64,000 nt of DNA, taken from the NCBI GenBank assembly GCA_018436095.1, contig JAHDMJ010000006.1, forward strand, positions 1-64,000. The letters run 5' to 3'. Each line of letters begins with the position of its first letter. The stretch's first letter is position 1. Below the pieces are notes generated by a model. That model was not told the DNA's origin. It saw only the letters and a program-made list of their open reading frames with translations, and did not search any database. The stretch is from Clostridia bacterium (GTDB lineage Bacteria > Bacillota > Peptococcia > DRI-13 > UBA5745). The translations under genes were made by a program, and so were the position numbers. This document shows, in pieces, positions 28,879-45,275 of this stretch.

Positions 28879-30065
28879 GGTTTTGCTCCTCTCAAATAAT
28901 CATAGGCCACTTTGGCATGGACGGCGCTCAGGATAGGCAGAGCGTCCTCATCGATGTTGAATTGGCTGTTGTGTAGAGAGACCGTGGGGGTTTTTGCCGG
29001 ATTGGCCACTCCTGCCTGATAAAAACAACCGGGGACATGCTCCAGAAAGATACCGAAGTCTTCGGTGCCCATACTGGGATTTTCGACGGCTACCAGCTTA
29101 TCTGCGCCTAACAGCTCGGCAATGGAGTCGCTGGCCAGCTTCGTCATCGCCGGGTCATTGACTACGCCGGGATAGCTTTCGTGAATGACAATATCCGCTT
29201 TGGCGCCGAAGGCCTGGACAATACCCTCCGTGATGCGGCGTACGGCTTCCACTGTGTTTTTACGCTTTTCGGGGCCTAAGGTGCGGATGATGCCGGTGAT
29301 AGTTACTTCGTCACAAATGACGTTGCGCTGGAAACCGCCATGAAAGGTGCCGACAGTGATGACGGCGGAATCCAGGGGATCTGTTTCCCGGCTGATATAA
29401 AGCTGCAAGGCGCCCACCACCTGACAGGCAATGGCAATGGCGTCGATACCCTTGTGAGGACGGGCGCCGTGGCTGCCAAAGCCACGGATAGTGATATCAA
29501 AAGGATTGGAGGCGGCATAACTTTTGCCGGAGCGGGTGCCAATATAGCCAACAGGGATATCAGGTGTGACGTGGGCGCCGAACATAGCGTCTACCTTAGG
29601 GTTTTCCAATCCTCCATCAGCGACCATGGGAGCGGCGCCGCCATCCCCTTCTTCATCGGGCTGAAAGAAAAATTTCACATTTCCCGGTAGTTCTTTACGG
29701 AAGGCAGCAAGGATTTTTGCCGCTCCCAAAAGGGTTGCAGTATGGGCGTCATGACCGCAGGCATGCATGATTCCCGGATATTTGGAAGCATAGGACACGC
29801 CGGTCTTCTCCTGAATCCTTAAGGCGTCCATATCGGCTCTTAATCCCACGGTAGAGCCGGGTAAGCCTCCCTCGAGCAGACCGAGAACGCCGGTGCCGGC
29901 TATTCTCTTTGTTTTTATACCCAGCTTTTGTAAATATCCCTCCACCAGCTTTTGGGTTTCCACTTCAGTTCTCCCTATTTCCGGATGCTGGTGAATTCTT
30001 CTGCGCAAATCAATGATTTCATCCTTTATTAATGAAGCTTCTTTCATAAAATCGGGCTGCGTCAT
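28875..30065 (-). CDS. M20 family amidohydrolase (N-acyl amino acid / hippurate hydrolase type)
   Basis: A 396-residue zinc-dependent amidohydrolase. Metal and catalytic motifs are RADMDAL, HACGHDAHTA, the QPDEEGDGG glutamates and GTEDFG near the C-terminus; HNSQFNIDE is also typical. The family removes acyl groups from amino acids (hippurate, N-acetyl amino acids, indole-acetyl conjugates) in the cytosol. AAAGGAGGTG precedes the ATG. It is first in a three-gene operon with two carriers, read from a sigma-54 promoter, so it probably supports catabolism of an acylated amino acid or peptide. Confidence 0.93.
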   Translation of the reverse strand: MTQPDFMKEASLIKDEIIDLRRRIHQHPEIGRTEVETQKLVEGYLQKLGIKTKRIAGTGVLGLLEGGLPGSTVGLRADMDALRIQEKTGVSYASKYPGIMHACGHDAHTATLLGAAKILAAFRKELPGNVKFFFQPDEEGDGGAAPMVADGGLENPKVDAMFGAHVTPDIPVGYIGTRSGKSYAASNPFDITIRGFGSHGARPHKGIDAIAIACQVVGALQLYISRETDPLDSAVITVGTFHGGFQRNVICDEVTITGIIRTLGPEKRKNTVEAVRRITEGIVQAFGAKADIVIHESYPGVVNDPAMTKLASDSIAELLGADKLVAVENPSMGTEDFGIFLEHVPGCFYQAGVANPAKTPTVSLHNSQFNIDEDALPILSAVHAKVAYDYLRGAKP

Positions 30066-30103
30066 AGAATCACCTCCTTTCTTATCGTATTGATTGTATG
30101 ATT

Positions 30104-30120
30104 TGCAAGTTTTATGCCTA
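30104..30120 (-). promoter_or_regulatory. Sigma-54 promoter of the M20 operon
   Basis: On the minus strand AGGCAT-n5-TTGCA matches the -24/-12 consensus TGGCAC-n5-TTGCA, with the GG and GC exactly 10 bases apart. Transcription would begin about 28 nt before the M20 start codon. A sigma-54 activator gene lies divergently next door. Confidence 0.8.
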
Positions 30121-30189
30121 TCGCCAAAAAGGTAAGAAATACTAAAAAATCTGCGGAAATGCGAGAATTTACCTGTAATATCTCCGCCC

Positions 30190-30218
30190 TTGCCAATAAA
30201 AAAAATATTCAGTATAAT
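30190..30218 (+). promoter_or_regulatory. Sigma-A promoter of the sigma-54 activator gene
   Basis: TTGCCA (30190-30195) and TATAAT (30213-30218) are separated by exactly 17 bp. The start would lie near 30225, directly at the inverted repeat 30227-30247. Confidence 0.8.
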
Positions 30219-30226
30219 AGAATAAA

Positions 30227-30247
30227 AACCTAGGTAGAACCTAGGTT
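30227..30247. promoter_or_regulatory. 9-bp inverted-repeat operator
   Basis: AACCTAGGT and ACCTAGGTT form a perfect inverted repeat with the spacer AGA. It overlaps the expected start of the activator gene and lies about 108 bp upstream of the -24 element of the sigma-54 promoter. It could thus serve both as autorepression site and as upstream activating sequence. Confidence 0.65.
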
Positions 30248-30262
30248 GATAAGAGTGATGAA

Positions 30263-32530
30263 ATGAATAAATTACCGGTTTTGGCGGTGCTTACCGTCAG
30301 AGATAATCTTACGGAATCCAATTGCTCTCAATTGCGGGAGCTTATTGGTGATTCCATAGAAATTCGGGGCTATACCGTGAAGGATAAAAGCTTGCGGATG
30401 TTTGACCCGAAAGCCGATCTTTGCCTTGTGGTAGGGCCGCCGGCCACTGCCTCCCGTATTATTGCTATGCTGCATCCCGAAGTGAAATACCTGGTCAAGG
30501 AGCGCTCCGTGGATTTGGTAAGACTTCATCTGCTGCAGCAGATTCCAGCCGGCGTTGATGTTTTATTGGTTAACGACATGTATCTCAATGCCGTTGAAGT
30601 AGCGGATGAGCTGAATGCAATGAATTTCCATCCCATGAAGCTTTATCCCTATAGTCCCGAGGGTCCCAACAGGCTGGAGGATAACCCGCCGGTCCCCCGG
30701 CGGCCGGACGGCAGCTCTTTTCAATATGCGATTACGGTAGGCGAGCCCCAATTGGTTCCGCCGGGAATACCGGTTGTTGTGGATATCGGCCATCGCCAGA
30801 TCAATATCATGACGGTGGCAAATATTTTGCGATGCTTGAAAAAGGATCAAAGCATGGACGCCATGGTGGGTACCCGTTATCTGCGGTCCTTTGCCAGCCT
30901 CAGCCTGATGATGGCAAAAAAGCATCAGGAAGTTTCCTTGCTCCAGGCCCAGCTGTCCTCGGTTATTGCGAATATAGACAACGGTATACTTCTGATCAAT
31001 GAGAGCCAGGAAATTTTAATTTTTAATGAAAGCGCTCAAAATATACTGGGGGAAAAAGATTTGTCGGGCCGGCTGGCTAAGGAATTTCTCGGAGGTGATT
31101 TTTTTCCGGATAATCCTGAGAAAAAATTTATTCATATCCAGGGCAGCTTGGTTTATGTCATCGTCACGGAAATAGTGGCTTCCTTCCAAGTGGGCAAATG
31201 CTATTTGATCAGTATTGAAAGCATGGAACAACTGCAAAATATCGGCTGGGATTATCAGAAACAGGTGAGTCAGGCCAATAAGGCCCGTTACCACTTTCGC
31301 GATATTGTTTATCGCAGCCAGGCCATGGGCAGGGTAGTAGAGAAGGCCTGGAGCTTTGCTAAAAGCAATGCCAATATTTTAATTACCGGCGAAAGCGGCA
31401 CCGGCAAGGAGCTCTTGGCCCAGGCTATTCATAATGCCTCCAGCCGCAAGGCGGCGCCTTTTTTGGCGATTAATTGCGGAGCTTTGACGGAGACTTTGCT
31501 GGAAAGCGAGTTGTTCGGCTATGAGGAGGGGGCTTTCACCGGGGCTAAGAAAGGCGGCAAGAAGGGGCTTTTTGAGCTGACTCACGGCGGCACCTTGTTT
31601 TTGGACGAGATCGGCGACACACCCCGCAGCATTCAGGTTAAGCTTCTCAGAACTCTGCAAGAAAAAGAAATCCTGCGGGTGGGGGGCAACAGGACGATTC
31701 CGGTAGATGTGCGGATTATTGCCGCCACCAACCAGGACTTGATCGAGCTGCAGCGCCAAGGCCTTTTCCGGCAGGATTTATACTACCGGCTCAATACCCT
31801 GCCCTTGACCATACCGCCTTTACGGCAGCGGAAAGAGGATATAGTGCCTCTCTTTATATATCTGATGAATAAAGCCATAAGCCGCCAAAACCGCCGGACC
31901 CGCCAGGGCCGGCAGAGCCGCCAGGCCGGCCAGGACCAACAGAGCAATCAGAACCGGCAGGACGGGAACGATCAGGAGAAAGCGGTTCAGCAAATGCAGA
32001 TAATGCCGGAGGCTATTGCCTTACTGGAGCGGCATTCCTGGCCCGGTAATGTGCGGGAGCTGGAGAATATGCTGGATTATCTGTTGAGCATTGACGCTTT
32101 GGGCAAGGGCCAGGCCGCGGCTATAGGTGAGCTGCTGGGGATGGAGGTCAGGGCGGCGGCAGAAACAGGGGAGAAAGGGACGGCAACGGTGAGGCGGGAA
32201 CCGGCGGGAAAGGAAAAAAATGAAGCGGACTACAATAGGTCGGCGCAAAATAAAAACCTTCATCCTGGGGCTGTCCAGTTTTCCAGCCGTCAGATGAAGG
32301 AAGAGTGTGAGGCGATTTTGCGGGTTTTGCTGAGAGCTAAAAATAGCGGAATGGCCTTGACCGGCCGGGGAGATTTGCAGCGGTTCCTGCGCCTGGAAGA
32401 GGAGCTGGTATTATCTTTGGATCAGATCAAGCTGCGGTTGAATGCCTTGCGGGGCTTTGGCTATGTGGAGGCTAAAATGGGCAAGGGCCATTATTTATTG
32501 CCGGCCGGGGAGACGTATATTGCTAAATGA
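30263..32530 (+). CDS. Sigma-54-dependent transcriptional activator (PrpR-like N-terminus, PAS, AAA+)
   Basis: A 755-residue enhancer-binding protein. Residues 1-230 resemble the periplasmic-binding-like sensor of the PrpR/propionate-type activators, and 230-330 contain a PAS-like domain. The AAA+ domain follows (about 345-590), with Walker A GESGTGKE near 376 and the sigma-54 contact loop GAFTGA near 423. A stretch of about 35 residues rich in Arg, Gln and Asn (about 539-575) is inserted before the HSWPGNVRELEN motif. The C-terminus lacks a clear Fis-type helix-turn-helix; it ends in what looks like a winged helix (DLQRFLRL to GKGHYLLP). It probably activates the divergent M20/carrier operon. 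The ribosome-binding site is weak. Confidence 0.92.
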   Translation: MNKLPVLAVLTVRDNLTESNCSQLRELIGDSIEIRGYTVKDKSLRMFDPKADLCLVVGPPATASRIIAMLHPEVKYLVKERSVDLVRLHLLQQIPAGVDVLLVNDMYLNAVEVADELNAMNFHPMKLYPYSPEGPNRLEDNPPVPRRPDGSSFQYAITVGEPQLVPPGIPVVVDIGHRQINIMTVANILRCLKKDQSMDAMVGTRYLRSFASLSLMMAKKHQEVSLLQAQLSSVIANIDNGILLINESQEILIFNESAQNILGEKDLSGRLAKEFLGGDFFPDNPEKKFIHIQGSLVYVIVTEIVASFQVGKCYLISIESMEQLQNIGWDYQKQVSQANKARYHFRDIVYRSQAMGRVVEKAWSFAKSNANILITGESGTGKELLAQAIHNASSRKAAPFLAINCGALTETLLESELFGYEEGAFTGAKKGGKKGLFELTHGGTLFLDEIGDTPRSIQVKLLRTLQEKEILRVGGNRTIPVDVRIIAATNQDLIELQRQGLFRQDLYYRLNTLPLTIPPLRQRKEDIVPLFIYLMNKAISRQNRRTRQGRQSRQAGQDQQSNQNRQDGNDQEKAVQQMQIMPEAIALLERHSWPGNVRELENMLDYLLSIDALGKGQAAAIGELLGMEVRAAAETGEKGTATVRREPAGKEKNEADYNRSAQNKNLHPGAVQFSSRQMKEECEAILRVLLRAKNSGMALTGRGDLQRFLRLEEELVLSLDQIKLRLNALRGFGYVEAKMGKGHYLLPAGETYIAK

Positions 32531-32583
32531 AGCCTGAGGCCAGGCAGGACCCCTTTTGGGTGAAAGGAATTCCTATTAAGCCT

Positions 32584-32609
32584 ATAAAACCTCAAATTTG
32601 TACATTGGG
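32584..32609. repeat. Single dispersed-repeat copy
   Basis: AAAACCTCAAATTTGTACA (32587-32605) and its flanks match the dispersed family in the reverse orientation. It lies between the convergent activator and purC genes. Confidence 0.5.
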
Positions 32610-32647
32610 AGTTGGAGGTGAGAACCTGGACCCCGTTGGGCCCGGCC

Positions 32648-33352
32648 TCAGCCCAGCAGCCGTTTGACCATTTCCTGATAAGCTTCCTCCACTTGGCCCA
32701 GATCCTGGCGGAAGCGGTCCTTATCAAGCTTCTTGCCGGTTTTCACATCCCAAAGGCGGCAGGTATCGGGAGAAATTTCGTCGGCCAGCACAATTTCTCC
32801 TTGAAAACGGCCGAATTCCAGCTTGAAATCGATGAGTTCCACCCCAAGGTTTAAAAAGTAGGCTGACAGGATTTCATTGATCCGGAAGGCGTATTCCTTC
32901 ACCTTTTCCATTTCCTGATCGCTGGCCAGTTGGAGAGCCCGAACATAATAGGAATTGATAAAAGGATCGCCAAGCTCATCGTCTTTATAGCTGTATTCCA
33001 AGATAACGCAATGCAAAGGCGTACCTTCCGCCACACCCATGCGTTTGGAAAAGCTGCCGGCAGCCCGGTTGCGGATAATCACTTCAAGAGGCAGAATTTC
33101 CACCCGTTTTACGGCCGTTTCCCTGTCCGAAAGCTGCTCAATATAATGGGTGGGAATACCCTTTTCCTCCAAAAGCTTAAAAAGGTGGTTGGACATTTTA
33201 TTGTTCACCACGCCTTTGCCGCTGATGGTGCCCTTTTTCAAACCATTGAAGGCTGTGGCGTCGTCCTTATATTCAATAATAACTGTGTTAGCGTGGTCGG
33301 TGGCAAAAACCTTTTTGGCCTTACCCTCGTAAAGTTGCTCCAGCTTTTTCAT
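32648..33352 (-). CDS. purC: SAICAR synthetase (PurC)
   Basis: Phosphoribosylaminoimidazole-succinocarboxamide synthase, 234 residues, the usual short bacterial form. It joins aspartate to CAIR with ATP in de novo purine synthesis. Motifs include LYEGKAKKVF at the start, EVIIRNRAAGSF (about 89-100), LVDFK-like LIDFKLEFG and DEISPDTCRLWD. It is the last gene of glnN-guaA-purC, 25 bp after guaA. Confidence 0.96.
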   Translation of the reverse strand: MKKLEQLYEGKAKKVFATDHANTVIIEYKDDATAFNGLKKGTISGKGVVNNKMSNHLFKLLEEKGIPTHYIEQLSDRETAVKRVEILPLEVIIRNRAAGSFSKRMGVAEGTPLHCVILEYSYKDDELGDPFINSYYVRALQLASDQEMEKVKEYAFRINEILSAYFLNLGVELIDFKLEFGRFQGEIVLADEISPDTCRLWDVKTGKKLDKDRFRQDLGQVEEAYQEMVKRLLG

Positions 33353-33377
33353 TGTCTTTCCTCTCCGATAATTTTAT

Positions 33378-34967
33378 TTACTCCCACTCAATGGTGCCCG
33401 GGGGCTTGCTGGTGATATCGTAGACCACCCGGTTGCAGCCGGCCACCTCGTTGATGATACGCTGGGATACTTTGCGCAGCAGGGCATAAGGCAATTCCGC
33501 AAACTCCACGGTCATGGCGTCGCTGCTGGTGACGGCCCGCAGTGCCACTACAAAATCGTAAGTGCGGCCGTCGCCCATGACCCCTACGGTCTGCACGCCG
33601 GTAAACACGGTAAAATATTGCCAGACGGCTTCGGCAAGGCCGGCTTTGGCTACTTCCTCCCGGAAGATCCAATCGCTTTCCCGGACAATGAACAGCCGTT
33701 CCGGCGTAATCTCCCCCATGATGCGGATGGCCAGGCCGGGGCCGGGAAAGGGCTGCCGCCAGACCAGGGCCTTAGGTATGCCTAAGGTCTCGCCCAGGCG
33801 GCGGACTTCATCTTTAAATAAGGAGCGCAGGGGCTCAATCAGGCCTTTAAAGGAAATATCCAGAGGCAGGCCTCCCACATTGTGGTGGCTTTTGATGACG
33901 GCGGATTTGCCGTGGCCGCTTTCGATAACGTCGGGATAAATGGTGCCTTGGACCAGATAGTCGGCGCCTCCCAGCTTGCGGGCTTCTTCTTCAAAAACCC
34001 GGATAAACTCTTCGCCGATGATCTTACGTTTGGCTTCCGGTTCCGTTATACCCCGGAGCTTGCCGAGGAAGCGCTCCGATGCGTCCACCTTGATAATGTT
34101 CATGCCCAGGGTGTCTTTGTAGAAAGCCATAACCTCGGCGGCCTCATTTTTTCGCAATAAGCCGTGGTCCACAAAAACGCAGGTCAGCTGGTCGCCGATG
34201 GCCTTGTGAACAAGGGCGGCGGCCACCGAGGAATCCACGCCGCCGGAAAGGCCGCAGAGAACGGCGCTGCCGCCGGCTTGGCGGCGGATATCCGCCACTA
34301 AGGTTTGAGACAGATCCGCCATCTGCCAATCCCCTTGACAGCCGCAGATCTCATAGCAGAAATTTTGCAGGATGCGGCGGCCGCCGGGGCTATGGCGTAC
34401 TTCAGGATGAAATTGCAAGCCGTAAAGCTTGCGGTTTTCGTCAGCAAAAGCGGCATTGGGGCAGTTTTCTGTTTTGGCGATGGCGGTAAAGCCCGGGGGC
34501 AGCTGCAAGACTGCATCCCGGTGATTCATCCAGACATGGCGGCCGGCCCCTTGCTCCCCGGTTTCTTCTTCGGACAAGCCGGCAAAAAGCCGGTGCCCGG
34601 CAAAAGCGATATCGGTATGGCCAAACTCGCTGACTTCCGCAGGACCTACCTTGCCCCCCAAGAGCTGTGCCATAAGCTGCATGCCGTAGCAGATGCCTAA
34701 AACCGGCACTCCGGCATTGAAAATTTCCGGATCGCAGTTGAGAGCGTCTTCCACATAAACGCTATCAGGGCCACCGGTAAGAATAATGCCCTTCAGCCGG
34801 TGGGGGCCGGCCTGAATTGCCGCCAGGGGAGCGTCGTAAGGCAGGATCTCCGCCAAAACTCCGGCCTCCCTGACGCAGCGGGCAATCAGTTGATTGTATT
34901 GCCCGCCGAAATCCAAAACGACGATTCTTTCATATATTTTAGAAGTAAAGGGAGAAGCTGATTGCAT
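33378..34967 (-). CDS. guaA: GMP synthase, glutamine-hydrolysing (full length)
   Basis: A full-length GuaA of 529 residues that converts XMP to GMP with glutamine. The glutaminase domain has GICYGMQ with the nucleophile Cys and FHPEVRH with His and Glu; the ATP-pyrophosphatase loop is SGGVDSS; the C-terminal domain ends in [12 protein letters not shown] 34967 is 7 nt after GGAG and is preferred; ATG 34988 would add 7 residues. It stands between glnN and purC. A second, glutaminase-less copy is at 9.8-11.1 kb. Confidence 0.96.
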
Positions 34968-35012
34968 TGATGCACTCCGATCTAACATTTATTTCCAGGT
35001 AAATGTCTAAAC

Positions 35013-37109
35013 TCAAACACTGAACAACAGTTCGCCATAGGTGGGGAAGGGCCAGTATTCTTCACCAACCAAGGTTTCCAGGCAATCGGCGGTAGCCCGC
35101 AGCTCCTGCATGGCCGGCAATACCTGGGCATGGAAGGCTTTGGCCTGCTCTAAGGCGTCGGCAATGCCCTTGGCCTGGATCAGCAACGATTCAAGACTTT
35201 CCGTTTTGCGGTAGAGATCGGCTGCCACTCCATCGATTTTTTGCAGCAATTGTTGCTCCATTTCGCAGGGGAGGCCTGCCAGTTTTGCTTTATTTAAGGC
35301 CGAACGGCTCAGCATTTCCTGATAGGAGGCCAAAGCCGGCATGATTTGGCGGCGGCTCATCTCCAGCATGGTTTGGGCCTCAATGGCCACAGTCTTATGG
35401 TAAATTTCCAAAGTGATTTCATAGCGGGAATGGATCTCGGTTTCCGTAAAGACGCCATGGCGGACAAAAAGATCAATGCTCTCTTTGCTGACAAAGGCAG
35501 GAAGAGCCTCCACGGTGGAAGTTAAATTGGAGAGGCCCCGTTTTGCCGCCTCTTTAACCCATTCCTCGGAATAGTTATTGCCGTTGAAGATGATCCGCTG
35601 ATGCCGGCTGATAGTATCCTTCAGCAAAGCGGTGAGGGCTTCCGAGAGGTCCCGGCCTGCCGCTTGGTCTTTTTCCAGCCTGTCGGCGAAAATCCTCATC
35701 GACTCCGCCACAATGGTATTGATCACAAAGTTGGGTCCGGAAAGGGAGAAGGAGGAACCGGGCATGCGGAATTCAAATTTATTGCCGGTAAAGGCAAAGG
35801 GAGAGGTACGGTTCCTGTCGGTGGTATCCTTGGGAATAGGAGGCAGGGCCTTAACGCCGATGGTCATATCGGTATGGTCGGCTTTATAGATTTTATCATC
35901 GGCAATAGCCTGCAAAATAGCGCTGAGCTCATCGCCCAGAAACATGGAAACGATGGCCGGCGGCGCTTCATTGGCGCCCAGCCGGTGGTCGTTGCCGGCG
36001 CTGGCTACGGAGCAGCGCAGCAGGTCCTGGTATGTGTCTACGGCTTTAATGATGGCGGCCAATACCACCAGAAACTGAGCGTTATCCTGGGGATTGTCTC
36101 CCGGCTCCAACAGGTTGACGCCGGTATTGGTGGATAAAGACCAGTTGTTGTGTTTGCCGGAGCCGTTGACGCCGGCAAAGGGCTTTTCATGGAGCAGACA
36201 AAACAGGCCGTGCTTACAGGCGATTTTTTTCATCATTTCCATGGTTAGCTGGTTGTAATCCGTAGCGATGTTGGTGGTGGAATAGATAATGGCCAGCTCA
36301 TGCTGACTGGGAGCTACCTCATTGTGCCTGGTTTTGGCGGGAATGCCCAGCCGCCACAGGGTTTCATCCAATTCCTTCATAAAGGCGGAGACTTTGGGCC
36401 GGATAGCGCCGAAATAGTGGTCATCCTTTTCCTGGCCTTTGGCAGGTTTGGCGCCAAATAAGGTGCGGCCTGTAAAGAATAAGTCTTTTCTCTGGCGATA
36501 GAGTTCCCGGTCGATGAGAAAATATTCCTGCTCCGGTCCCACGGTGGTGGTTACCCTGGTAATCTCCGTTTTGCCTAAAGCGTGGAGGAGCCTTACGGCC
36601 TGGTTATTGATAGCTTCCATAGAGCGCAAAAGAGGCGTTTTTTTGTCTAAAGCTTCGCCGCTATAAGAGCAGAAGGCTGTGGGAATACATAAGGTATTGT
36701 CCTTAATAAAGGCATAAGAGGTAGGATCCCAGGCCGTATAACCCCGGGCTTCAAAGGTATTGCGCAGGCCGCCGGAGGGGAAGCTGGAAGCGTCAGGCTC
36801 ACCTTTGATCAGTTCCTTGCCGGAAAAAGTCATCATCAATTGGCCTTCGGGGGTCAGGGAGATAAAGCTGTCATGCTTTTCCGCCGTAATGCCGGTCATG
36901 GGCTGGAACCAATGGGTAAAATGAGTGGCTCCTTTTTCCAAGGCCCAATCCTTCATGGCGCTGGCGATGATATCTGCCGCCGCCGGGTCCAGAGGACTGC
37001 CTGTGGTCATGGTATGGGCCAGGGAGCGGTAGGTTTTGGCGGGAAGCCGCCGCTGCATTACGCTGTCACTGAAAACGTCGCTGCCGAAAAAATCCGATAT
37101 ACTGCTCAT
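35013..37109 (-). CDS. glnN: Glutamine synthetase type III
   Basis: A 698-residue GSIII, the large hexameric-ring type of glutamine synthetase, which makes glutamine from glutamate, ammonia and ATP. Diagnostic segments are [31 protein letters not shown] and [17 protein letters not shown] 37109 is 6 nt after AGGAGGA; the longer frame to 37166 has no such site. It is first in the glnN-guaA-purC operon and sits behind a leader with an intrinsic terminator. A type I enzyme is encoded 2 kb away on the other strand. Confidence 0.95.
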
Positions 37110-37167
37110 GAAGATTCCTCCTAAATATAATGCTTTACGCCAGAATACGACCGCTGATTTTAGCAAT

Positions 37168-37209
37168 AAAAAAAGGGCTGAGAAGCCTCACAAGCTTCCC
37201 AGCGCCTTT
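37168..37209 (-). terminator. Leader terminator (attenuator) of glnN-guaA-purC
   Basis: On the minus strand GCGCTGGGAAGC pairs with GCTTCTCAGC around a 7-base loop and is followed by CCCTTTTTTT. It lies between the promoter (-10 at 37231-37226) and the glnN start, so transcription from that promoter must pass it. The leader before the hairpin is only about 15-20 nt long. Confidence 0.75.
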
Positions 37210-37225
37210 GCTGATTGATAGAATG

Positions 37226-37255
37226 ATTATAAACGCCAACACCTTGGACTGTCAA
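37226..37255 (-). promoter_or_regulatory. Sigma-A promoter of glnN-guaA-purC
   Basis: TTGACA (37255-37250) and TATAAT (37231-37226) on the minus strand are consensus hexamers with an 18-bp spacer. An intrinsic terminator follows within the leader. Confidence 0.75.
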
Positions 37256-37335
37256 CAGAAAATTCTATGTATACAAACCTTTGCGAACTCATGTTCTTCT
37301 CTTGTATGTATACACCATATATCGGCTGCGCCACG

Positions 37336-37364
37336 TTGACAAGGGCCGGCAGACCAAGTATTCT
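37336..37364 (+). promoter_or_regulatory. Sigma-A promoter reading toward purA
   Basis: TTGACA (37336-37341) and TATTCT (37359-37364) with a 17-bp spacer. The start would be near 37371, only about 23 nt before a strong terminator hairpin. It may serve purA through read-through or a small RNA. Confidence 0.6.
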
Positions 37365-37393
37365 AATAGGAGATAGTCGCATAAAAACCTCAG

Positions 37394-37450
37394 ACAAAGG
37401 CGTCTGTAAAGGGGCAGAAAAGCTGCCTCTCTACAGACGCCTTTGTTTTT
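37394..37450 (+). terminator. Strong hairpin terminator downstream of the rightward promoter
   Basis: ACAAAGGCGTCTGTA (37394-37408) pairs with TACAGACGCCTTTGT (37432-37446), and the inner arms GGCAG/CTGCC close a 5-base loop. A T-run follows. It is the longest and most regular hairpin in the window and lies nearly 390 bp before purA. Confidence 0.85.
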
Positions 37451-37523
37451 GGCAAGGAGGGTAGGCCTTAGTGAAACAAAAGAAGGACAGATCCGTATTC
37501 CGTCGGGCTGTGCTATAGCCGGC

Positions 37524-37727
37524 GCCATTTTCCCGGCTCTCCATCATGATATATATTCTATTGAAGACTTGCACTAATTGGTATATTCTTTAAAAGAAGC
37601 AACGGATTATCAAAAGCCGGTAATCCTCCCGGTTACCGCCTGGACCCATGAGATAGAGAGGTTTATGGAGGGATGGGCGTCAAACATGCCGGAGAGTAGA
37701 GCCGTCAAAAAAAGGCAAACCTATTAG
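37524..37727 (+). pseudogene. Possible gene remnant between the leader and purA
   Basis: One frame reads 67 codons with a single internal TAA. The part after the stop, LVYSLKEATDYQKPVILPV, recalls the ELSEKYxxPVILRxTxR segment of indolepyruvate or related 2-oxoacid ferredoxin oxidoreductase alpha subunits. A short GTG frame with AGGAGG (37471-37518) lies upstream in another phase. A decayed oxidoreductase gene fragment is possible but the similarity is weak. Otherwise 37451-37833 holds nothing I recognise. Confidence 0.2.
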
Positions 37728-37833
37728 AAACAAAGATTGTTGCGATGAAATCATTACTGTGATTAAAAACCTATTGCCATCAGGTTGTTATGGTGAAACT
37801 ATACGGAAGCGGAGAAGGGCAGGAGGAATAGAT

Positions 37834-39150
37834 ATGGATAAAAAAACAGCAGAACCCAGGCAAGGCCAATTGACAGCTATAGTGGGAATCAACTGGGGCG
37901 ACGAAGGCAAAGGCCGCATGGTGGACCTTTTGTCTCAGGAATATGACATAGTGGTGCGGTATCAGGGGGGGAACAACGCCGGCCATACCGTAGTCAACGA
38001 AAAGGGCAAATTTATCCTCAACCTGCTGCCTTCCGGCATTTTGCGCCAGGAGGTGGTCAATGTCATGGGCGGCGGCATGGTCATCGATTTGGAGCACCTT
38101 TGCCATGAGCTGGCAAGCTTAAAGGAAAAAGGGGTGGAGATCAGCCCGGATAATCTGAAGATCAGCCATCAGGCGACGATTTGCCTGCCTTACCATAAGC
38201 TCCAGGATATATACGAAGAAGACCGGCTGGGAGGCAAATACGGTTCCACCCGCCGGGGCATTGGTCCCGTATACAGTGATAAATATCTCCGTAAAGGCAT
38301 CCGCATGGGTGAACTTCTGTATCCGGAAGCTCTGGAAAAGACGGTAAAGGAATTTCTGGAATGGAAAAACCTGATGATTACCGGCGTTTATCAGAAGCCG
38401 GCCATGACAGTGGAAGAGCTCATGGATTGGCTGAACCGGTTTGGCGAAGGGCTGAAGCCGTTTATTTGCGATACCGGCGCTTTTTTGGATCAGGCGGCGG
38501 CAGAAGGCAAAAAAATTATGTTCGAGGCCCAATTGGGGGCCTTGCGGGATATCGACTTTGGCATCTATCCCTATACTTCATCTTCCTCGACTATTGCCGC
38601 ATACGCTCCCATCGGCGCCGGCATTCCCGGCCGGCGGCTGGATCAGGTGGTGGGTATCATGAAAGCTTATTCCAGCGCCGTAGGCGGCGGACCTTTTACT
38701 TGCGAGCTTTTTGGCCCTGAGGGAGAGGCTCTGCGGGAAGCCGGCGGCGAATACGGCGCCGCCACAGGCCGGCCCCGGCGGGTAGGGCCCTTCGATTGCG
38801 TCGCCTCCCGCTACGGCGTCAGGTTCCAGGGAGCAGACCAACTTGCCTTGACCAAGCTGGACGTTTTGTCTTATATGGAGAAGATTCCTGTCTGCGTAGC
38901 CTATTCCACAAAAGCAGGCAAGACGGAAGAATTCCCCTGGGGTCCGGCCCTGGAGGAAGCGGAACCGGTGCTGGTTTATTTGCCGGGCTGGCGAAAGGAC
39001 ATCGGCGCCTGCCGCAATTTTGCAGACCTGCCGGCAGAGGCCAGAGATTATGTAGAGTATTTGGAAAAGGCCGTAGGCTGCCCGATTACCTACATTTCCG
39101 TGGGGCCCAGCCGGGAGCAGTACCTGCTCAAAGGGCAGGTCAGGAAATAG
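37834..39150 (+). CDS. purA: Adenylosuccinate synthetase (PurA)
   Basis: A 438-residue enzyme that joins IMP and aspartate with GTP, the first step toward AMP. Motifs are GINWGDEGKGRMVDLL with the phosphate loop, YQGGNNAGHTV, GSTRRGIGPVYSDK and the C-terminal GPSREQY. ATG 37834 is 7 nt after GGAGG; the frame extends to 37759 without a ribosome-binding site. It lies 72 bp before glnA and may be co-transcribed with it. Confidence 0.95.
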   Translation: MDKKTAEPRQGQLTAIVGINWGDEGKGRMVDLLSQEYDIVVRYQGGNNAGHTVVNEKGKFILNLLPSGILRQEVVNVMGGGMVIDLEHLCHELASLKEKGVEISPDNLKISHQATICLPYHKLQDIYEEDRLGGKYGSTRRGIGPVYSDKYLRKGIRMGELLYPEALEKTVKEFLEWKNLMITGVYQKPAMTVEELMDWLNRFGEGLKPFICDTGAFLDQAAAEGKKIMFEAQLGALRDIDFGIYPYTSSSSTIAAYAPIGAGIPGRRLDQVVGIMKAYSSAVGGGPFTCELFGPEGEALREAGGEYGAATGRPRRVGPFDCVASRYGVRFQGADQLALTKLDVLSYMEKIPVCVAYSTKAGKTEEFPWGPALEEAEPVLVYLPGWRKDIGACRNFADLPAEARDYVEYLEKAVGCPITYISVGPSREQYLLKGQVRK

Positions 39151-39222
39151 CGCATTAGCGGTGCTCAGAATGTACATTAACATTTTAGAATTGCATTAAT
39201 AATTTTCAGGAGGTGACTGATT

Positions 39223-40542
39223 GTGAAGTATACGGAGGCGGAAGTAATCCAGTTCGTCCGGGAAAACAATGTCAAGTTTATCCGTCTGATGTTCTGCGAT
39301 ATCTTTGGCCGTATCAAAAACTTGTCCATTATGCCGGAAGAATTAGAGAGGGCCTTCAGCGAGGGTATATCCTTTGACGGTTCTGCCCTGCAAGGCTTTC
39401 AAGGCTCGGAGGCTTCCGACTTGTTCCTTTACCCCGATCCTTCGACTTTGGCAGTACTGCCCTGGCGGCCCTCCCGGGGACGGGTGGTCCGCCTGCATTG
39501 CCGGATTTGTTATCCCGACGGCAGGCCCTATGAAAACGATAGCCGCAGCATCCTGTACCAAACAGCCAAAAGACTGGAGAAAGCAGGCTTTCGTTGCCAA
39601 ATCGGGCCGGAATGCGAGTTCTATTTATTTAACCTGGATGACAAGGGAGAGCCTACGAAGATGCCCCAGGACCGGGGCGGCTATTGTGATATAGAGCCCC
39701 TTGACCGGGGAGAAAACCTGCGGCGGGAGATTTGCCTGACTCTGGAAGATATGGGGCTGCAGCCGGAAAGCTCCCATCACGAGCAGGGGCCGGGGCAAAA
39801 CGAGATTGGCTTCAAATATCAGGAATGCTGTCAGGCAGCCGATGACTTGATGACCTTCCGCTCCCTGGTGAAGGCTCTGGCAGCTCAAAACGGCCTCCAT
39901 GCCTGTTTTATGCCGAAGCCTCTGCCCGGCTATAGCGGCAGCGGCCTCCATATTAATTTGTCTTTGCTGCGGCAGGGCAAAAATCTCTTTGCCTCCGCCG
40001 ACCCGGCAGACCGGCAAATTGTCGAGAGCTTTTTGGCCGGCATACTGGAGCGGATTAGAGAGATTACCGTCTTTCTCAATCCCCTGACCAATTCCTACCG
40101 GCGATTCGGGGCTTTTGAGGCGCCGGGCTATGTCTCCTGGGGCCAAAAAAACCGCTCTCAGCTTATTCGTATCCCGGCGGCGGCAGGGGAGTTGAGCCGG
40201 ATGGAACTGCGTTCCCCGGACCCGGCGGCCAATCCTTATCTGGCTTTCGCTTTAGTTGCGGAAGCCGGCCTGGAGGGCATACAGCGGCAGCTTCCTTTAG
40301 CCGCCCCCCGGGGAGACAATCTCTATCTGTTAAACGACAGCCAGTCCGCCGGTTTGCTGAAGCTGCCGGCAACCCTGGGCGAGGCCTTGGCCCTGGCTGC
40401 AGAAAGCAGCTTTATCCGTCAAGTCTTGCCGGAGACATTGGTGCGCCCTTACCTTAAAGCCAAAGAGGAGGAGTGGCAGGCCTGCCGCCAGGCGCCGGAC
40501 CAGTTGCTCTGGGAAGAGATGCAGTATTTTCCGTATATTTGA
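39223..40542 (+). CDS. glnA: Glutamine synthetase type I
   Basis: A 439-residue GSI of the alpha (low-GC Gram-positive) size. It starts with GTG after CAGGAGGTG. Motifs are FDGSALQGF near the N-terminus, IGPECEFYLF (metal ligands), HHEQGPGQNEI, GSGLHINLSL and RMELRSPDPAANPYLAFA. The C-terminus is short, with no adenylylation loop visible. It makes glutamine for the surrounding amidotransferase enzymes. An ANTAR antiterminator gene follows, separated by a hairpin-rich repeat block. Confidence 0.94.
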   Translation: MKYTEAEVIQFVRENNVKFIRLMFCDIFGRIKNLSIMPEELERAFSEGISFDGSALQGFQGSEASDLFLYPDPSTLAVLPWRPSRGRVVRLHCRICYPDGRPYENDSRSILYQTAKRLEKAGFRCQIGPECEFYLFNLDDKGEPTKMPQDRGGYCDIEPLDRGENLRREICLTLEDMGLQPESSHHEQGPGQNEIGFKYQECCQAADDLMTFRSLVKALAAQNGLHACFMPKPLPGYSGSGLHINLSLLRQGKNLFASADPADRQIVESFLAGILERIREITVFLNPLTNSYRRFGAFEAPGYVSWGQKNRSQLIRIPAAAGELSRMELRSPDPAANPYLAFALVAEAGLEGIQRQLPLAAPRGDNLYLLNDSQSAGLLKLPATLGEALALAAESSFIRQVLPETLVRPYLKAKEEEWQACRQAPDQLLWEEMQYFPYI

Positions 40543-40583
40543 TTAGCCGGCAGGATGGCGGAACCGAAAGGATGGAGGCAACA

Positions 40584-40760
40584 GGCGCGGATGTTCCGCT
40601 ATCCGAAGATGCTTAGGGCGCGGATGTATCCGCTATCCGAAGATGCTTAGGGTGCGGATGTCCTGCGGACTCAATCCTGCGGATTTAATCTGCTATCCGT
40701 AGAAGCTTAGGGCGCAGATGTATCCGCTATCCGTAGATACTAAGGGCGCAGATGTCCGCC
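40584..40760 (+). repeat. Five tandem imperfect repeats with hairpin potential before the ANTAR gene
   Basis: A unit of about 33-34 bp is repeated: 40584-40616, 40617-40650, 40651-40710 (with a 26-bp insertion), 40711-40743 and a partial 40744-40760. Each unit contains GCGGAT-GT-ATCCGC or a variant and then CCGAAGATGCTTAGG, which can fold as CC-AAG-ATG-CTT-GG. In the fourth unit the latter reads CCGTAGATACTAAGG, where both sides of the stem change together (TAG/CTA). The paired changes suggest that the structure is maintained in RNA or DNA. The block ends directly at the Shine-Dalgarno site of the ANTAR gene. Confidence 0.7.
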
Positions 40761-40778
40761 AAAAAGGAGGTGAGAGTT

Positions 40779-41351
40779 GTGGAGCAAGTATTGATTGTAT
40801 CCGGCGCCCCCAAAGAAGGGCAGGAGGCGGCCCGTTTGCTGCAAGGGCAGGGTTATGAGCGGCTGCTTTTGATTAGCGGCGGCAATCAGGCCCGCCGCAA
40901 GCTGGCGGAGGCTGATTTTGACCTGGTGCTTGTTTGTCCGCCTCTCGCCGATGAAAATCCTTTTACCTTTGCGGCCTCAGTGGCTGAAACCTATGACGCC
41001 GGCGTACTTTTGCTGACGGAATGGGAAACGGAAGAAAATCTTGCCGCCGATATGGCCGACAGCGGCGTTTTCGTAGTGCCCAAGGCCTACGGCGATCAAT
41101 TCTTCCTCCAGGCTCTGCGGCTGGCCCAGGCTTACGGGCGCCGCTGGCACAACTTGAAGCGGGAAAACCGCTTGCTGCAGCAAAAAATTCAGGATATCCG
41201 CCTGATCAACCGGGCTAAGCTGGTGTTGATCCAATACCTGGGCATGACGGAGACCCAGGCCCATCGCTACATTGAAAAGCAGGCTATGGACTTGCGGCAG
41301 CCCCGGCAAAAGGTGGCTAAGGATATATTGCGAACCTATGAAAAAGAATGA
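40779..41351 (+). CDS. ANTAR-domain RNA-binding antiterminator
   Basis: A 190-residue protein, with GTG 40779 after AAGGAGG; the ATG at 40752 would add nine residues but has no such site. Residues 1-120 form a receiver-like domain that lacks the usual phospho-acceptor pattern, and 130-185 form the ANTAR helices (LLQQKIQDIRLINRAKLVLIQ is the first part, with YLGMTETQAHRYIE after it). ANTAR proteins bind dual-hairpin RNAs and prevent termination, often in nitrogen genes. Its place next to glnA and near two terminator-led promoters suggests control of the glutamine genes. The RNA target is not certain. Confidence 0.88.
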   Translation: MEQVLIVSGAPKEGQEAARLLQGQGYERLLLISGGNQARRKLAEADFDLVLVCPPLADENPFTFAASVAETYDAGVLLLTEWETEENLAADMADSGVFVVPKAYGDQFFLQALRLAQAYGRRWHNLKRENRLLQQKIQDIRLINRAKLVLIQYLGMTETQAHRYIEKQAMDLRQPRQKVAKDILRTYEKE

Positions 41352-41487
41352 TCTGCCTTAAGTGCTGAGGTATCGGTGCTTGGCAGTGAGGCAAGGTCTG
41401 CGGGATGGCGGGCCGAAAAGTGTTGATTTCTCAGGCGGCGGCGGCGGGCGGTGGTAGGCGTTGCGGTGTCGCGATGCAGCCCACAGA

Positions 41488-42400
41488 GATGTGCAAAACC
41501 TGCAAATTGCAGATTTGCACTTGATACCGGCAGGCACCGCCCCAGTGCTCAAAATTTCAAGTTTGCAGCGATCAAAGAGTTGCTTTGGGCCAAAAATTCA
41601 AGTTTAAAGTGTGTTGACTCTCTAGAATATGGCTTTGATTCTGTTTGCGACACTAGATACAGCTAAAAAATGCTGATCAGGCCCATAAAAGCGTGTTTCA
41701 AACACTTTAAACCGAGGCTGCTGAAAAAGTCGCAGGGTTATGTCCGTATAGTGGCTAAAATCGGATTCGCTGTTGCCAACTGCTCAAAAATCGAGGTTGT
41801 GTGACGGTAAGCAGGGGATTTTACCTGTTTTCGCTTCCAGATGCACAAAAATCGAAGTTGTGTGACGGATTATAGGGCAGTTTTTCGTAATCTGAGCCAA
41901 TTTAAAGGAAATAGTAAAACACAACCTCGATTTTTGTGCAGTTAGCCTCTGCTTTTAGCCTAAATTTGATGTCTGCTGCAACACAGCTTCGATTTCTGTG
42001 CACCTTACCTGATTTGCCGGCGACTTTTCAGTACCCTCCTTTAAACCTATAATTTTGCTCATTTTCCAAGGAGACTGGGCGGCAAACCGGGCACTGAAAA
42101 AGTCGGGCAAGCTGACCGTCGTAGGGCTGAAATGTACAAAATTTGAGGTTTTATGTTTATTGGCCAGGACTAACTGCGCAAAATCTCCAGTTTTACATTG
42201 ATAAGCACTATTTTTTCCTGCTATTTAGTGTCAATGATAATTTGAATCCACTATCTTAAAGGAGACGGCCAGCAAAAACCTCAATTTTTGTACACGCGGT
42301 TGGATGGGAAGCAACTTTTTAGTGCCTCCCCCCGATAAACCTAGCAAAATTGAGCAGTTAGCCTTTGCGAAGGGTAACAAAGCTGCAGGTTTGCACAGGA
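41488..42400. repeat. Large cluster of dispersed repeats in a 1.3-kb gene-free region
   Basis: No gene is visible between the ANTAR gene and purF. At least ten repeat copies occur, near 41488-41523, 41544-41570, 41586-41612, 41780-41807, 41842-41868, 41919-41947, 41980-42004, 42129-42155, 42171-42200, 42272-42312 and 42345-42400, in both orientations. Two copies share CAAAAATCGAGGTTGTGTG or its A variant plus ACGG. The copy at 42272-42312 matches the one at 508-546 over nearly 40 bp. Facing copies 41842-41868 and 41919-41947 could form a hairpin. Confidence 0.75.
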
Positions 42401-42577
42401 ATGCCGTCACAGAAGACCCTGCAGGTCTCAACCTGGCAGAGCGCCAACCCAGCGAGACGCCAAATCAGCAAAGTGCCAAGTGGCGGAGTTCCAACCCGGC
42501 AGAGTATTAACCCAAGATATCTTAGTATGTATACCTGCATAAATTTGCAAATTCCCATTCGTCTTGCGAAAAACCTG

Positions 42578-42586
42578 TGATATAAT
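42578..42586 (+). promoter_or_regulatory. Extended -10 promoter of purF-carA-carB-pyrG
   Basis: TGATATAAT is an extended -10 element; no good -35 is seen at the normal distance. Transcription would start near 42593, 45 nt before the purF ATG. No riboswitch fits in that leader. Confidence 0.6.
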
Positions 42587-42637
42587 ATTTCAGATAGAAA
42601 CCTGATAGAAAAAACCACGGGCTTGGGGAGGCGCAGC

Positions 42638-44059
42638 ATGGATAAAAAAAGCAGAAAACTAGGAGAAGAATGCGGTGTTTTTGGCGTCAGTCTCACGGAA
42701 CCCGAGGGGGCTGGCCTTACATATAATGCCCTTCTGGCTCTGCAGCACCGGGGCCAGGAAAGCGCCGGCATTGCCGTTTTGGTGGACAGGTCCATCCGCT
42801 GCTATAAGGACCAGGGTTTGGCCAGTGAGATATTTAATGATGAAGCATTGAAAAAACTGCCTGACGCCGCCATGGCCATCGGTCATGTGAGATACTCCAC
42901 TACCGGCGCCAGTTGCAGCGAAAATGCCCAGCCCATCGTTATCGAATACCTGCGGGGCCGTCTGGCCGTAGCCCACAACGGCAATATTGTCAACGGCATG
43001 GAAATCAAGGCGGAACTGGAAAAAGGAGGCTGCGATTTTACCGCAACCACAGATAGTGAAGTCATTGCCACCTTGATCGCTTATGAGGCCTTGTCCTGTA
43101 CCGATATAGAGGAGGCGGTGGCTAAGGCCGCGGCCCGGCTGCGGGGAGCTTTCTCCCTGGTGGTGCTTTCCAGCCAGGGCAAGCTCATTGCTCTCAGAGA
43201 CGGCTGGGGTTTCCGGCCCTTGTGCATAGGCGAGGGCAGCCTTGGCCTGGCGATATCTTCAGAAAGCTGTGCCCTGGAAAGCGCCGGTTTTGAGTTTTTA
43301 CGGGATGTTCAGCCCGGCGAAATGCTGGTCATTGACCGGGAGCAGCAGATGATCAGCAGTCAGGTGCTGAAAAAAGAGCGTCAAGGCCTTTGTATTTTTG
43401 AATATGTCTATTTTGCCCGGCCCGACTCCGTTATCGACGGGCTTAGCGTATATAAAGCCCGTTTCCGGGCGGGACAAGTTCTGGCCCGGGAATATCCTGT
43501 GGAGGCCGACGTGGTTTGCGGCGTACCGGACAGCGGGCTGGAGGCAGCCCAAGGCTACAGCGCCGCCAGCGGTATTCCTTTTGTCAGCGGTTTTTTGAAA
43601 AACCGCTATATCGGCAGGAGTTTCATTTTTCCCTCCCAAAAGCAAAGGGAAGCGGCGGTGCGTTTGAAACTAAACCCGTTAAAGACAAATATCAGCGGCA
43701 AAAAAATCGTGCTGGTAGACGATTCCATCGTTCGGGGCACCACCAGCGCTAAAATCATCAGAAGCTTAAAAGAAGCGGGAGCGGCAGAAGTCCATCTGCG
43801 GATATCCTCACCGCCTTTTAAATACACCTGCCATTTCGGCACGGATATCGGCGACGAAAAAAATCTTATCGCCAACCAAATCAGTCAAGAGGAGCTGAGA
43901 CAGCGTATTGGAGCCGACAGCTTAGGCTACATTAGCCTGGAAGGGCTGCAGGAAGCCTGCGGCGATTGTGCTTTGCCTTTTTGCGTAGGCTGTTTTAACG
44001 GCGATTATCCCGTAGCATTGGAGGAGGACGCTGAGCAAAAGGATAAATCAAAGTGTTGA
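42638..44059 (+). CDS. purF: Amidophosphoribosyltransferase (PurF)
   Basis: A 473-residue enzyme catalysing the first step of purine synthesis, PRPP plus glutamine to phosphoribosylamine. ATG 42638 follows GGGGAGG. The N-terminal propeptide is 11 residues (MDKKSRKLGEE) before Cys12, which becomes the N-terminal nucleophile, as in Bacillus. The PRPP loop is VLVDDSIVRGTTS. The C-terminal CGDCALPFCVGCFNG and the Cys near 250 are consistent with the 4Fe-4S cluster of the Bacillus type, which makes the enzyme oxygen-sensitive. It leads a run with carA, carB-dapF and pyrG at gaps of 34, 1 and -4 bp. Confidence 0.96.
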   Translation: MDKKSRKLGEECGVFGVSLTEPEGAGLTYNALLALQHRGQESAGIAVLVDRSIRCYKDQGLASEIFNDEALKKLPDAAMAIGHVRYSTTGASCSENAQPIVIEYLRGRLAVAHNGNIVNGMEIKAELEKGGCDFTATTDSEVIATLIAYEALSCTDIEEAVAKAAARLRGAFSLVVLSSQGKLIALRDGWGFRPLCIGEGSLGLAISSESCALESAGFEFLRDVQPGEMLVIDREQQMISSQVLKKERQGLCIFEYVYFARPDSVIDGLSVYKARFRAGQVLAREYPVEADVVCGVPDSGLEAAQGYSAASGIPFVSGFLKNRYIGRSFIFPSQKQREAAVRLKLNPLKTNISGKKIVLVDDSIVRGTTSAKIIRSLKEAGAAEVHLRISSPPFKYTCHFGTDIGDEKNLIANQISQEELRQRIGADSLGYISLEGLQEACGDCALPFCVGCFNGDYPVALEEDAEQKDKSKC

Positions 44060-44093
44060 GAAGGAGCAATTTCATTTTTAGGGAGGAAAGCAG

Positions 44094-45275
44094 ATGACTA
44101 AACGGATATATTTGACTTTGGCCGACGGCCAGGTGTTTCAAGGCCGGCCCTTCGGAGCTGCCGGGGAGGTTAGGGGAGAAGTCGTATTTACAACGGGCAT
44201 GACCGGCTATCTGGAGACAATAACCGACCCCAGCTATTTCGGCCAGATCGTCGTACAGACCTTTCCTCTCATTGGCAACTACGGAGTAATACCGGAGGAT
44301 TTTGAAAGCAATTACCCCAGGCTTAAAGCCTATATCGTCAAAGAATGGTGCCAGGAGCCCTCTAATTTCAGAAGCCAGGGGGATCTTGACACCTTTTTAA
44401 AAGATAAGGGTATTGTGGGCTTGTGGGATATCGATACCCGGGCTTTGACCAGAATCATCCGGGAAAAAGGGGTTATCAACGGTTACATTGGCAGCCGGCC
44501 TTTGACTCAAGGCGATCCGGAGTTTGCCGCTTTGCAGTCCTACCGGGTTAAGGATGCAGTAGCCTCGGTGGCGGTGGTTACAGAGCCTGAAACCGATGAG
44601 GTCCGGGCCGGAGAAAAGCCGGAAAAGTTGGAAAAACTCGAAAAACCGGAAAAGGTGGAAGAACCAGAAGAACTAAAGAAACCGGAAGAGCTGGGTAAAC
44701 ACGGGAAGCCGCTGACCGTAGTCCTCTGGGATTTCGGCGCCAAAGGCAATATCAAGCGGCAGCTTTTGGCCCGGGGCCTGCGGGTGGTGACGGTGCCTTA
44801 TTCTTATAGCGCCGCAGAGATTTTGGCTCTTAAGCCCGACGGCGTCATGCTGTCCAACGGCCCCGGGGACCCGGCGGAGAATACGGCCATCATCAGGGAG
44901 TTAAAGATACTGACGGAGCAGAACCTGCCTGTTTTCGGTATTTGCTTAGGGCACCAGCTTTTGGCTCTGGCCATGGGCGGCAAGACGGAAAAAATGAAAT
45001 ACGGCCACCGGGGGGCCAACCAGCCGGTGCGGGATATCAAAAAAGGTCATGTGCTGATCAGCAGCCAAAATCATGGCTATACGGTGAGTCTGGACCAGTT
45101 GCCTGACGGAGCGGAACTAAGCTTCGTCAACGCCAACGACGGTACCTGTGAAGGCTTGCAGTACATAGGCAAGCCGGTATTTTCCGTTCAGTTTCACCCG
45201 GAGGCTTGCTCGGGACCTCTGGATACCCGCTATCTCTTCGACGATTTCGTGGCATTGATGAAAGGAGAAAACTAA
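44094..45275 (+). CDS. carA: Carbamoyl-phosphate synthase small subunit (CarA) with charged insertion
   Basis: A 393-residue glutaminase subunit that supplies ammonia to CarB. The N-terminal CarA domain is residues 1-160, and the class I glutaminase domain 207-393 has GICLGHQ (Cys284) and QFHPEA (His368, Glu370). Between them, at about 164-206, is an extra segment made almost only of Glu, Lys, Pro and Leu, with repeated EKPEKLEK-like units. CarA is usually about 360-380 residues, so this is an inserted flexible linker. AGGGAGG precedes the ATG. Confidence 0.96.
   Translation: MTKRIYLTLADGQVFQGRPFGAAGEVRGEVVFTTGMTGYLETITDPSYFGQIVVQTFPLIGNYGVIPEDFESNYPRLKAYIVKEWCQEPSNFRSQGDLDTFLKDKGIVGLWDIDTRALTRIIREKGVINGYIGSRPLTQGDPEFAALQSYRVKDAVASVAVVTEPETDEVRAGEKPEKLEKLEKPEKVEEPEELKKPEELGKHGKPLTVVLWDFGAKGNIKRQLLARGLRVVTVPYSYSAAEILALKPDGVMLSNGPGDPAENTAIIRELKILTEQNLPVFGICLGHQLLALAMGGKTEKMKYGHRGANQPVRDIKKGHVLISSQNHGYTVSLDQLPDGAELSFVNANDGTCEGLQYIGKPVFSVQFHPEACSGPLDTRYLFDDFVALMKGEN

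Follow-up and report, generated by a model that had tools for sequence, protein, structure and literature searches.

What might two promoters achieve that each run, within about 80 nt, into an intrinsic terminator? The question is raised by the intergenic region between glnN (minus strand) and purA (plus strand) in the 64,000-nucleotide stretch of Clostridia bacterium DNA analysed here, referred to as the window, where two divergent promoters are each directly followed by such a terminator (Table 1). A sequence-only reading had described this arrangement and had pointed to the AAAGGCG with which both terminator hairpins begin; both observations hold, the first by consensus scan, folding and conservation, the second with the addition that the left stem carries a 1x1 C.C mismatch after AAAGG. 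The left promoter (-35 TTGACA at 37255-37250, 18-nt spacer, -10 TATAAT at 37231-37226, minus strand) matches the consensus hexamers at 12/12 positions and is the top-scoring promoter-like site in a scan of 28000-46000; the right one (TTGACA at 37336-37341, 17 nt, TATTCT at 37359-37364, plus strand) matches at 10/12. Judged from these boxes, transcripts would start near 37219 and 37371, respectively. The left terminator-like hairpin, 37203-37177 followed by U7, is listed first in the scan of the same interval, with the most pairs (12). Compared with shuffles, the left leader folds at -24.9 kcal/mol (z = -3.56) and the right at -41.9 kcal/mol (z = -8.25). The scans as a whole are just mildly enriched (26 promoters against 15.2 in shuffles, 38 terminators against 24.0), and what carries the case is where these sites lie and that they are conserved: G004, a genome of the same genus, keeps both promoters, with a difference of one base in the right -10 box, both hairpins, and both TGTATACA palindromes.

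Table 1. Features of the region around the two leaders, in positions of the window.
Feature	Positions	Strand	Basis
purC-like ORF (SAICAR synthase)	32648..33352	-	named from its own sequence and by the sequence-only reading
guaA, GMP synthase	33378..34988	-	profile search
glnN, type III glutamine synthetase, proposed left target	35013..37109	-	Pfam PF12437, PF18318, PF00120
Left intrinsic terminator, 5' arm includes the hexaloop and its 3' arm; U7 at 37174-37168	37168..37209	-	scan, folding
Left hexaloop hairpin UCAGC[AAAGGC]GCUGG, antiterminator and proposed ANTAR site, loop 37209-37204	37199..37214	-	folding of early transcript; model R1, 40.5 bits
Promoter of glnN-guaA-purC, TTGACA-18-TATAAT	37226..37255	-	consensus scan; kept in G004
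Palindrome TGTATACA upstream of left -35, possible operator	37268..37275		kept in G004
Palindrome TGTATACA upstream of right -35, possible operator	37307..37314		kept in G004
Promoter toward purA, TTGACA-17-TATTCT	37336..37364	+	consensus scan; kept in G004
Right hexaloop hairpin CAGAC[AAAGGC]GUCUG, 26 nt after -10 box	37391..37406	+	sequence, folding
Right intrinsic terminator (AAAGGCGTCTGTA.../TACAGACGCCTTT and T-run), nearly symmetrical	37396..37450	+	sequence, folding
Decayed remnants of glutamate synthase genes, between right terminator and purA	37474..37735	+	comparison with G004
purA, adenylosuccinate synthetase, proposed right target	37834..39150	+	PF00709
glnA, type I glutamine synthetase	39223..40542	+	PF00120, PF03951
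ANTAR protein (receiver-like domain without phospho-Asp, coiled coil, ANTAR domain), proposed antiterminator	40752..41351	+	PF03861; predicted fold

The palindromes are possibly, like the related TGTATAC sites, the operator of a DNA-binding regulator. TGTATAC is matched 9 times in the window, at 7 places (palindromes score on both strands), where 2.2 matches would be expected, and TGTATAC-like sites stand upstream of many GSIII promoters in relatives; it also occurs at 42528-42534, upstream of the purF promoter. Between the divergent promoters lies CGAACTCATGTTC (37284-37296), which we took to be a LexA-like box; it is missing from G004 and was dropped.

The shared AAAGGCG has a second role, overlooked in the sequence-only reading: it belongs to the first arm of the terminator and, at the same time, contains the loop of a smaller hairpin upstream that is able to form first. 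On the left this hairpin reads, as DNA, CAGC[AAAGGC]GCTG (37213-37200, minus strand) and would begin about 5 nt into the RNA, counted from the presumed start; on the right it reads CAGAC[AAAGGC]GTCTG. The early transcripts, when folded by themselves, adopt these hairpins at -5.3 kcal/mol (left) and -7.1 kcal/mol (right). In both leaders the loop is the hexaloop AAAGGC, its first base A and its fourth G, and it is closed by a terminal C:G pair. A six-base loop with these two bases is the feature recognized by ANTAR proteins, as given in the available text of PMC3369931, and SELEX with NasR, as far as the accessible part of that study reports it, added the terminal C:G pair (PMC7496416); the left site, AGCAAAGGCGCUG, matches 11/13 positions of the eut consensus AGCAANGRRGCUY printed there (PMC3369931). 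In both leaders the hexaloop hairpin overlaps the intrinsic terminator: bases of its loop and 3' arm also serve as the 5' arm of the terminator stem, so that only one of the two folds can be present at a time.

We read both leaders as ANTAR-controlled transcription attenuators with a single hexaloop, a reading to which we assign a probability of roughly 0.83. As polymerase leaves the promoter, the early RNA would fold into a hairpin of 4-5 bp with loop AAAGGC, as its sequence and covariation indicate; left alone, the loop and 3' arm would pass into the stronger hairpin before the U-tract, in keeping with the alternative folds, and transcription would by default stop after roughly 50-80 nt. At a nitrogen status that demands it, the ANTAR protein would bind the hexaloop, hold the small hairpin and block the terminator, and the resulting readthrough would allow glnN-guaA-purC and purA-glnA-ANTAR to be transcribed. 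Binding and readthrough are suggested by the ANTAR-type loop, by the co-occurrence of element and ANTAR genes described below, and by the known mechanism of EutV and NasR; as the ANTAR gene is part of the right-hand unit, the circuit would form an autoregulatory loop. The locus is best read as part of a nitrogen regulon that would be under single-hexaloop antitermination, with the ANTAR gene placed inside an operon that it would control. The sequence-only reading had considered attenuation of both units by the nearby ANTAR protein, and the hexaloop, the overlapping terminator, the covariation and the ANTAR co-occurrence all support this, binding and readthrough standing as its probable steps; there is no call for the other mechanism or other factor to which it resorted, since the loop is of the ANTAR type (A1, G4, C:G closing pair), single instead of dual.

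The same reading was right in finding no canonical pair of ANTAR hairpins: in each leader, from the -10 box to the last base of the small hairpin, that hairpin is the sole AnnGnn hexaloop of at least 3 pairs, with no second one on the left or on the right, and neither leader shows the P1 hairpin upstream of P2 that defines a dual-hairpin target. The alternative that survives best, though improbable, holds that the leaders are canonical dual-hairpin attenuators after all, the first hairpin having been overlooked and the start lying farther upstream than the consensus promoter. It draws on the relatives. GSIII and ANTAR were searched for in 299 genomes of the window's phylum and the leaders of the GSIII genes collected, giving 56 leaders from 48 genomes (3 of 59 GSIII rows, in G096 and two of G285, were left out as contig edges or fragments). 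Five leaders before GSIII (L015, L020, L024, L181 and L184) have two hairpins, and L133 has two hexaloops without a formal terminator; both designs exist. Against the alternative stands the spacing of promoter and hairpin. In a pool of 150 leaders from genomes with or without ANTAR (the 56 GSIII leaders, 16 relatives chosen for the element, and 78 of 80 named loci, 34 of the 78 with the element; the two left out are L054, a repeat of G008, and L088, which has hardly any upstream DNA), 52/79 distinct element leaders have a promoter of at least 10/12 matches with 7-15 nt between the end of its -10 box and the hairpin, this gap being 9-12 nt in 43; the remaining 27 comprise 4 with such a promoter only at another distance (0 to 119 nt) and 23 with none. 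Transcription usually starts 6-7 nt after the -10 box; if it does so here, the hairpin in those 52 leaders lies within a few nucleotides of the 5' end of the RNA, leaving no room for a P1. The left leader of the window fits this 5'-terminal design (gap 11 nt, 40.5 bits with model R1, described below); the right one fits it poorly (gap 26 nt, 8.8 bits, E = 4.3).

The pool also bears on whether the small hairpin is a structure in its own right. Because selecting elements for their stem would be circular, covariation was counted at sites anchored by CAANGRYG and a T-run only, with no stem requirement: stem pairs 2-4 are all formed in 62/81 distinct sites, whereas re-dealing the 3' arms yields 20.6 such sites on average and 31 at most. 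Of the 87 element sites, selected for loop AANG and stem, 52 have AAAGGC as their loop and 85 have C:G as closing pair, a pair that played no part in the selection. In the full fold of 74/80 distinct leaders the 3' half of the loop is base-paired, and the early transcript folds the hexaloop in 70/80. These counts weigh on a further explanation, to which we give little credence, namely that the leaders are factor-independent early terminators, damping transcription or insulating the divergent promoters from each other, with AAAGGCG as the A-tract side of the terminator stem. The right terminator, almost symmetrical and readable as a terminator on both strands, would suit such a role; a terminator alone, however, predicts neither a covarying small stem, nor the C:G closing pair at nearly every site, nor a link to ANTAR genes.

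That link is seen most directly before GSIII. The formal element, defined as an AnnGnn loop on a stem of at least 4 pairs overlapping a terminator, is present in 30/44 GSIII leaders from genomes with an ANTAR gene and in 0/12 from genomes without one, with 55/2800 (2%) of Markov-randomised leaders passing the same test; by genome the counts are 29/36 against 0/12, and by family 18/20 against 0/10, with families f10 and f32 in both groups. As related genomes are not independent samples, P-values for this co-occurrence are optimistic. The formal element is missing in 7/36 ANTAR-containing genomes; hairpin-like sites in G026, G212 and G276 that fail the T-run rule were counted as misses. By eye, among 40 nearer relatives, the element is seen in 22/23 GSIII leaders whose genome has ANTAR, the exception being G037, with both genes and no element; of the three GSIII leaders without ANTAR in this set, those of G002 and G027 show none, and that of G014 has, farther upstream, a hexaloop-like site with a T-run, which fails the formal test in the larger sample and appears in the relaxed list. 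In three leaders, L012 (G028), L165 (G277) and L199 (G256), two single-hexaloop attenuators stand in tandem upstream of a single GSIII gene, and each has a terminator of its own. The element also precedes GSIII in a contig titled Treponema (a MAG; L087), which would lie outside Bacillota if the title is right. The second GSIII paralogue of the window's own genome has no element (L202), and its co-regulation was rejected.

Could the element serve another RNA-binding factor, or be itself a metabolite-sensing RNA, its co-occurrence with ANTAR reflecting shared ancestry only? The non-independence of related genomes speaks for this, and ANTAR binding is itself a candidate interaction. We nevertheless hold it very unlikely: the element tracks ANTAR by family as well as by genome, and the antiterminator, at 14-16 nt with a fixed loop, is small for an aptamer. 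An Rfam search (gathering score, and E up to 5) found no known element at these leaders, its matches in the window being a fluoride riboswitch elsewhere and two sub-threshold chance matches, and gave 0 matches across 8 loci carrying elements. The riboswitch (RF01734, 46.4 bits) lies at 7840-7912.

The right-hand unit has a history that accounts for its long gap before purA. In G004 the same right leader is followed by genes for a glutamate synthase amidotransferase, a gltB-like protein, purA, a GXGXG-domain protein, glnA and ANTAR. The leader match between the window and G004 runs into the start of the amidotransferase gene, and 103 bp of the window (37519-37621) match the gltB-like gene at 88%; the amidotransferase and gltB-like genes, whose open counterparts lie at 11408-14025 of L031 in G004, are thus, judging by this comparison, decayed in the window, their remnants explaining the gap and making a free-standing small RNA unlikely. 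The suggestion of the sequence-only reading that the terminated right-hand transcript, which would be about 80 nt long, is such an independent RNA is the least probable of all, since in G004 this leader directly precedes the amidotransferase gene and heads the row that runs through purA and glnA to ANTAR, and the window gap holds the remnants of that row; nor is a sponge role like that of EutX likely, the hexaloop being sequestered in the terminated RNA. The stretch of about 1 kb beyond the ANTAR gene (41352-42357) looks, by eye, rich in short degenerate repeats resembling TGCACAAAAATCGA, and no ORF of at least 80 aa is listed for it.

The ANTAR gene encodes 199 aa and is the single ANTAR match in the genome, scoring 54 bits with PF03861 against a curated cut-off of 27.3. 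Its predicted structure (mean pLDDT 86.2, pTM 0.65) has a receiver, a coiled coil and a three-helix ANTAR domain, folded as in EutV and AmiR; structure matches of the model are Rv1626, EutV (6wsh_A, TMq 0.77; 6ww6_B, 0.70) and AmiR. At the position that we take, from the usual receiver motif, to be that of the phospho-acceptor Asp, the protein has C, and across it and 9 relatives the residue is C, N or G in all 10. Phosphorylation is thus unlikely to be the signal. The recurrence of glnA as neighbour suggests glutamine synthetase as a partner; such a partnership with the enzyme encoded beside the ANTAR protein is our guess.

The element reaches beyond GSIII. Model R1, comprising promoter and hairpin, was built from 41 of 56 sequences, 15 near-duplicates or odd ones having been removed by hand, and was run over the 299 genomes with stricter filters, at which weak matches are lost. 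It matches at E <= 0.002 in 22/299 genomes, all 22 with an ANTAR match, against 149/299 overall; 15 of the 22 had given training sequences and 7 (G026, G102, G166, G184, G192, G212, G276) had not. In G026 and G028 the element stands upstream of a gene for a glutamate synthase amidotransferase, after which come gltB-like, glnA and ANTAR genes (the gltB-like gene of G028 named from its sequence alone), and in G026 also asnB and pyrG; in G034 it precedes nadE-purC-purB-guaA and a pyrG-like ORF, the latter named from sequence only, and in G039 glnA-ANTAR. R1 matches before purF in G102, before a gltB-like gene in G257, and before a glnA-like gene in G136, where no clear terminator was seen. G008 has the element at two units, a purA-ANTAR-purF-carA-carB row and the GSIII gene that diverges from it (ANTAR found by search, the others named from sequence). 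In G192, a genome without a GSIII match, the promoter-hexaloop design stands before a gene for an allantoate/hydantoinase-type amidohydrolase (L268). The purF gene of the window appears by eye to have its own promoter, TTGCGA-TATAAT (42555-42638), with no hexaloop element.

In the window's own genome the element precedes asnB, with a weak R1 match (E = 0.27), and asnB would be the third target. R1 gives 8 matches there at E <= 1, of which glnN, asnB and C30 were inspected, the last being without the element (L248). A pattern search of this genome gives 14 matches against 5 in the reversed control; the six inspected fall at four places, namely the purA site, the asnB site, C29 and one inside a 778-aa ORF. 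C29 is a symmetrical terminator-like site, matched, as was the purA site, on both strands, and has no hexaloop element; the site in the ORF (L254) passes the element scan and is regarded as chance. A genome-wide IUPAC search for promoter, loop and T-run was too loose, its listed matches being about as many as those of the reversed control, and was dropped. Of eight new R1 loci screened for a downstream gene, four (L271, L274, L276, L277) gave no match to the promoter-plus-hairpin pattern.

The leaders may belong to a widespread class, an extension of our reading that we regard as evenly poised. In this class one hexaloop hairpin a few nucleotides from the start would be the whole ANTAR antiterminator, the 5' position taking over from the recruiting P1. 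A glutamine-economy regulon (glnN, glnA, gltB, asnB, purF, guaA, pyrG, nadE) would in this way be run by an ANTAR protein that does not depend on phosphorylation and is perhaps gated by the neighbouring glutamine synthetase. The leaders suggest how many anaerobes, including lineages with gut and rumen in their record titles, may match glutamine synthesis to the enzymes that consume it.

Published work, in the parts available, speaks on both sides of a single-hairpin reading. Against it, EutV depends on both hairpins in vivo and binds a lone stem-loop less well (PMC3369931), a longer linker between the two hairpins kills antitermination in vitro (PMC8934654), and NasR binds a single P2 hairpin only at about 12 uM (PMC7496416); for it, the EutV structure paper gives one hexaloop as the minimal site, with no significant difference in binding among P1, P2 and dual RNA (PMC8934654). 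The accessible text of that paper allows single sites where the time limit set by a moving polymerase is absent (PMC8934654); the single hexaloops described here overlap terminators. Dual stem-loops were a search criterion of an actinobacterial survey (PMC8164766), and a NasT study, in its available text, found clear hairpins at only some targets (PMC6759348). Among the papers listed, mostly non-subscription and screened by title and abstract, none reports a 5'-terminal ANTAR site or attenuators with one hexaloop at GSIII, and individual sites may stand in the supplementary tables of PMC3369931. Why two hairpins are used when the EutV dimer contacts one hexaloop at a time is a question raised, in the text available to us, by PMC8934654; natural leaders with a single hexaloop and a terminator make it testable, as either their 5' position or a different ANTAR protein would do the job of P1.

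Several known systems, as described in the accessible parts of their papers, resemble these leaders in part. The dual-hairpin ANTAR regulons of Desulfotomaculum and Pelobacter likewise comprise several nitrogen operons per genome, including glutamate synthase genes, but were found with a model that requires P1 by design (PMC3369931). The single hexaloops of PMC8934654, an extra one in EutX RNA and stem-loops of M. tuberculosis that are not always dual, are likewise lone candidate sites of the ANTAR type; that text, as available, does not describe them as terminator-overlapping antiterminators at the 5' end of a transcript. RAT antiterminators of the BglG/SacY type also consist of one small hairpin that excludes a terminator, and differ in protein family and in their RAT sequence of 29-30 nt (PMC3369931). 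The closest likeness in these sources is to EutV/eutP, NasR/nasF and AmiR/amiE, with which the leaders share the A1/G4 hexaloop, the C:G closing pair, the overlap of the hairpin with the 5' arm of the terminator, the protein fold and the association with nitrogen genes (PMC3369931, PMC8934654, PMC7496416). Unlike those targets, they have one hairpin, often at the 5' end of the RNA, a receiver without the phospho-acceptor Asp, and a set of glutamine and purine genes; we thus file them as leaders that would work like an ANTAR antiterminator, yet do not conform to the dual-hairpin definition.
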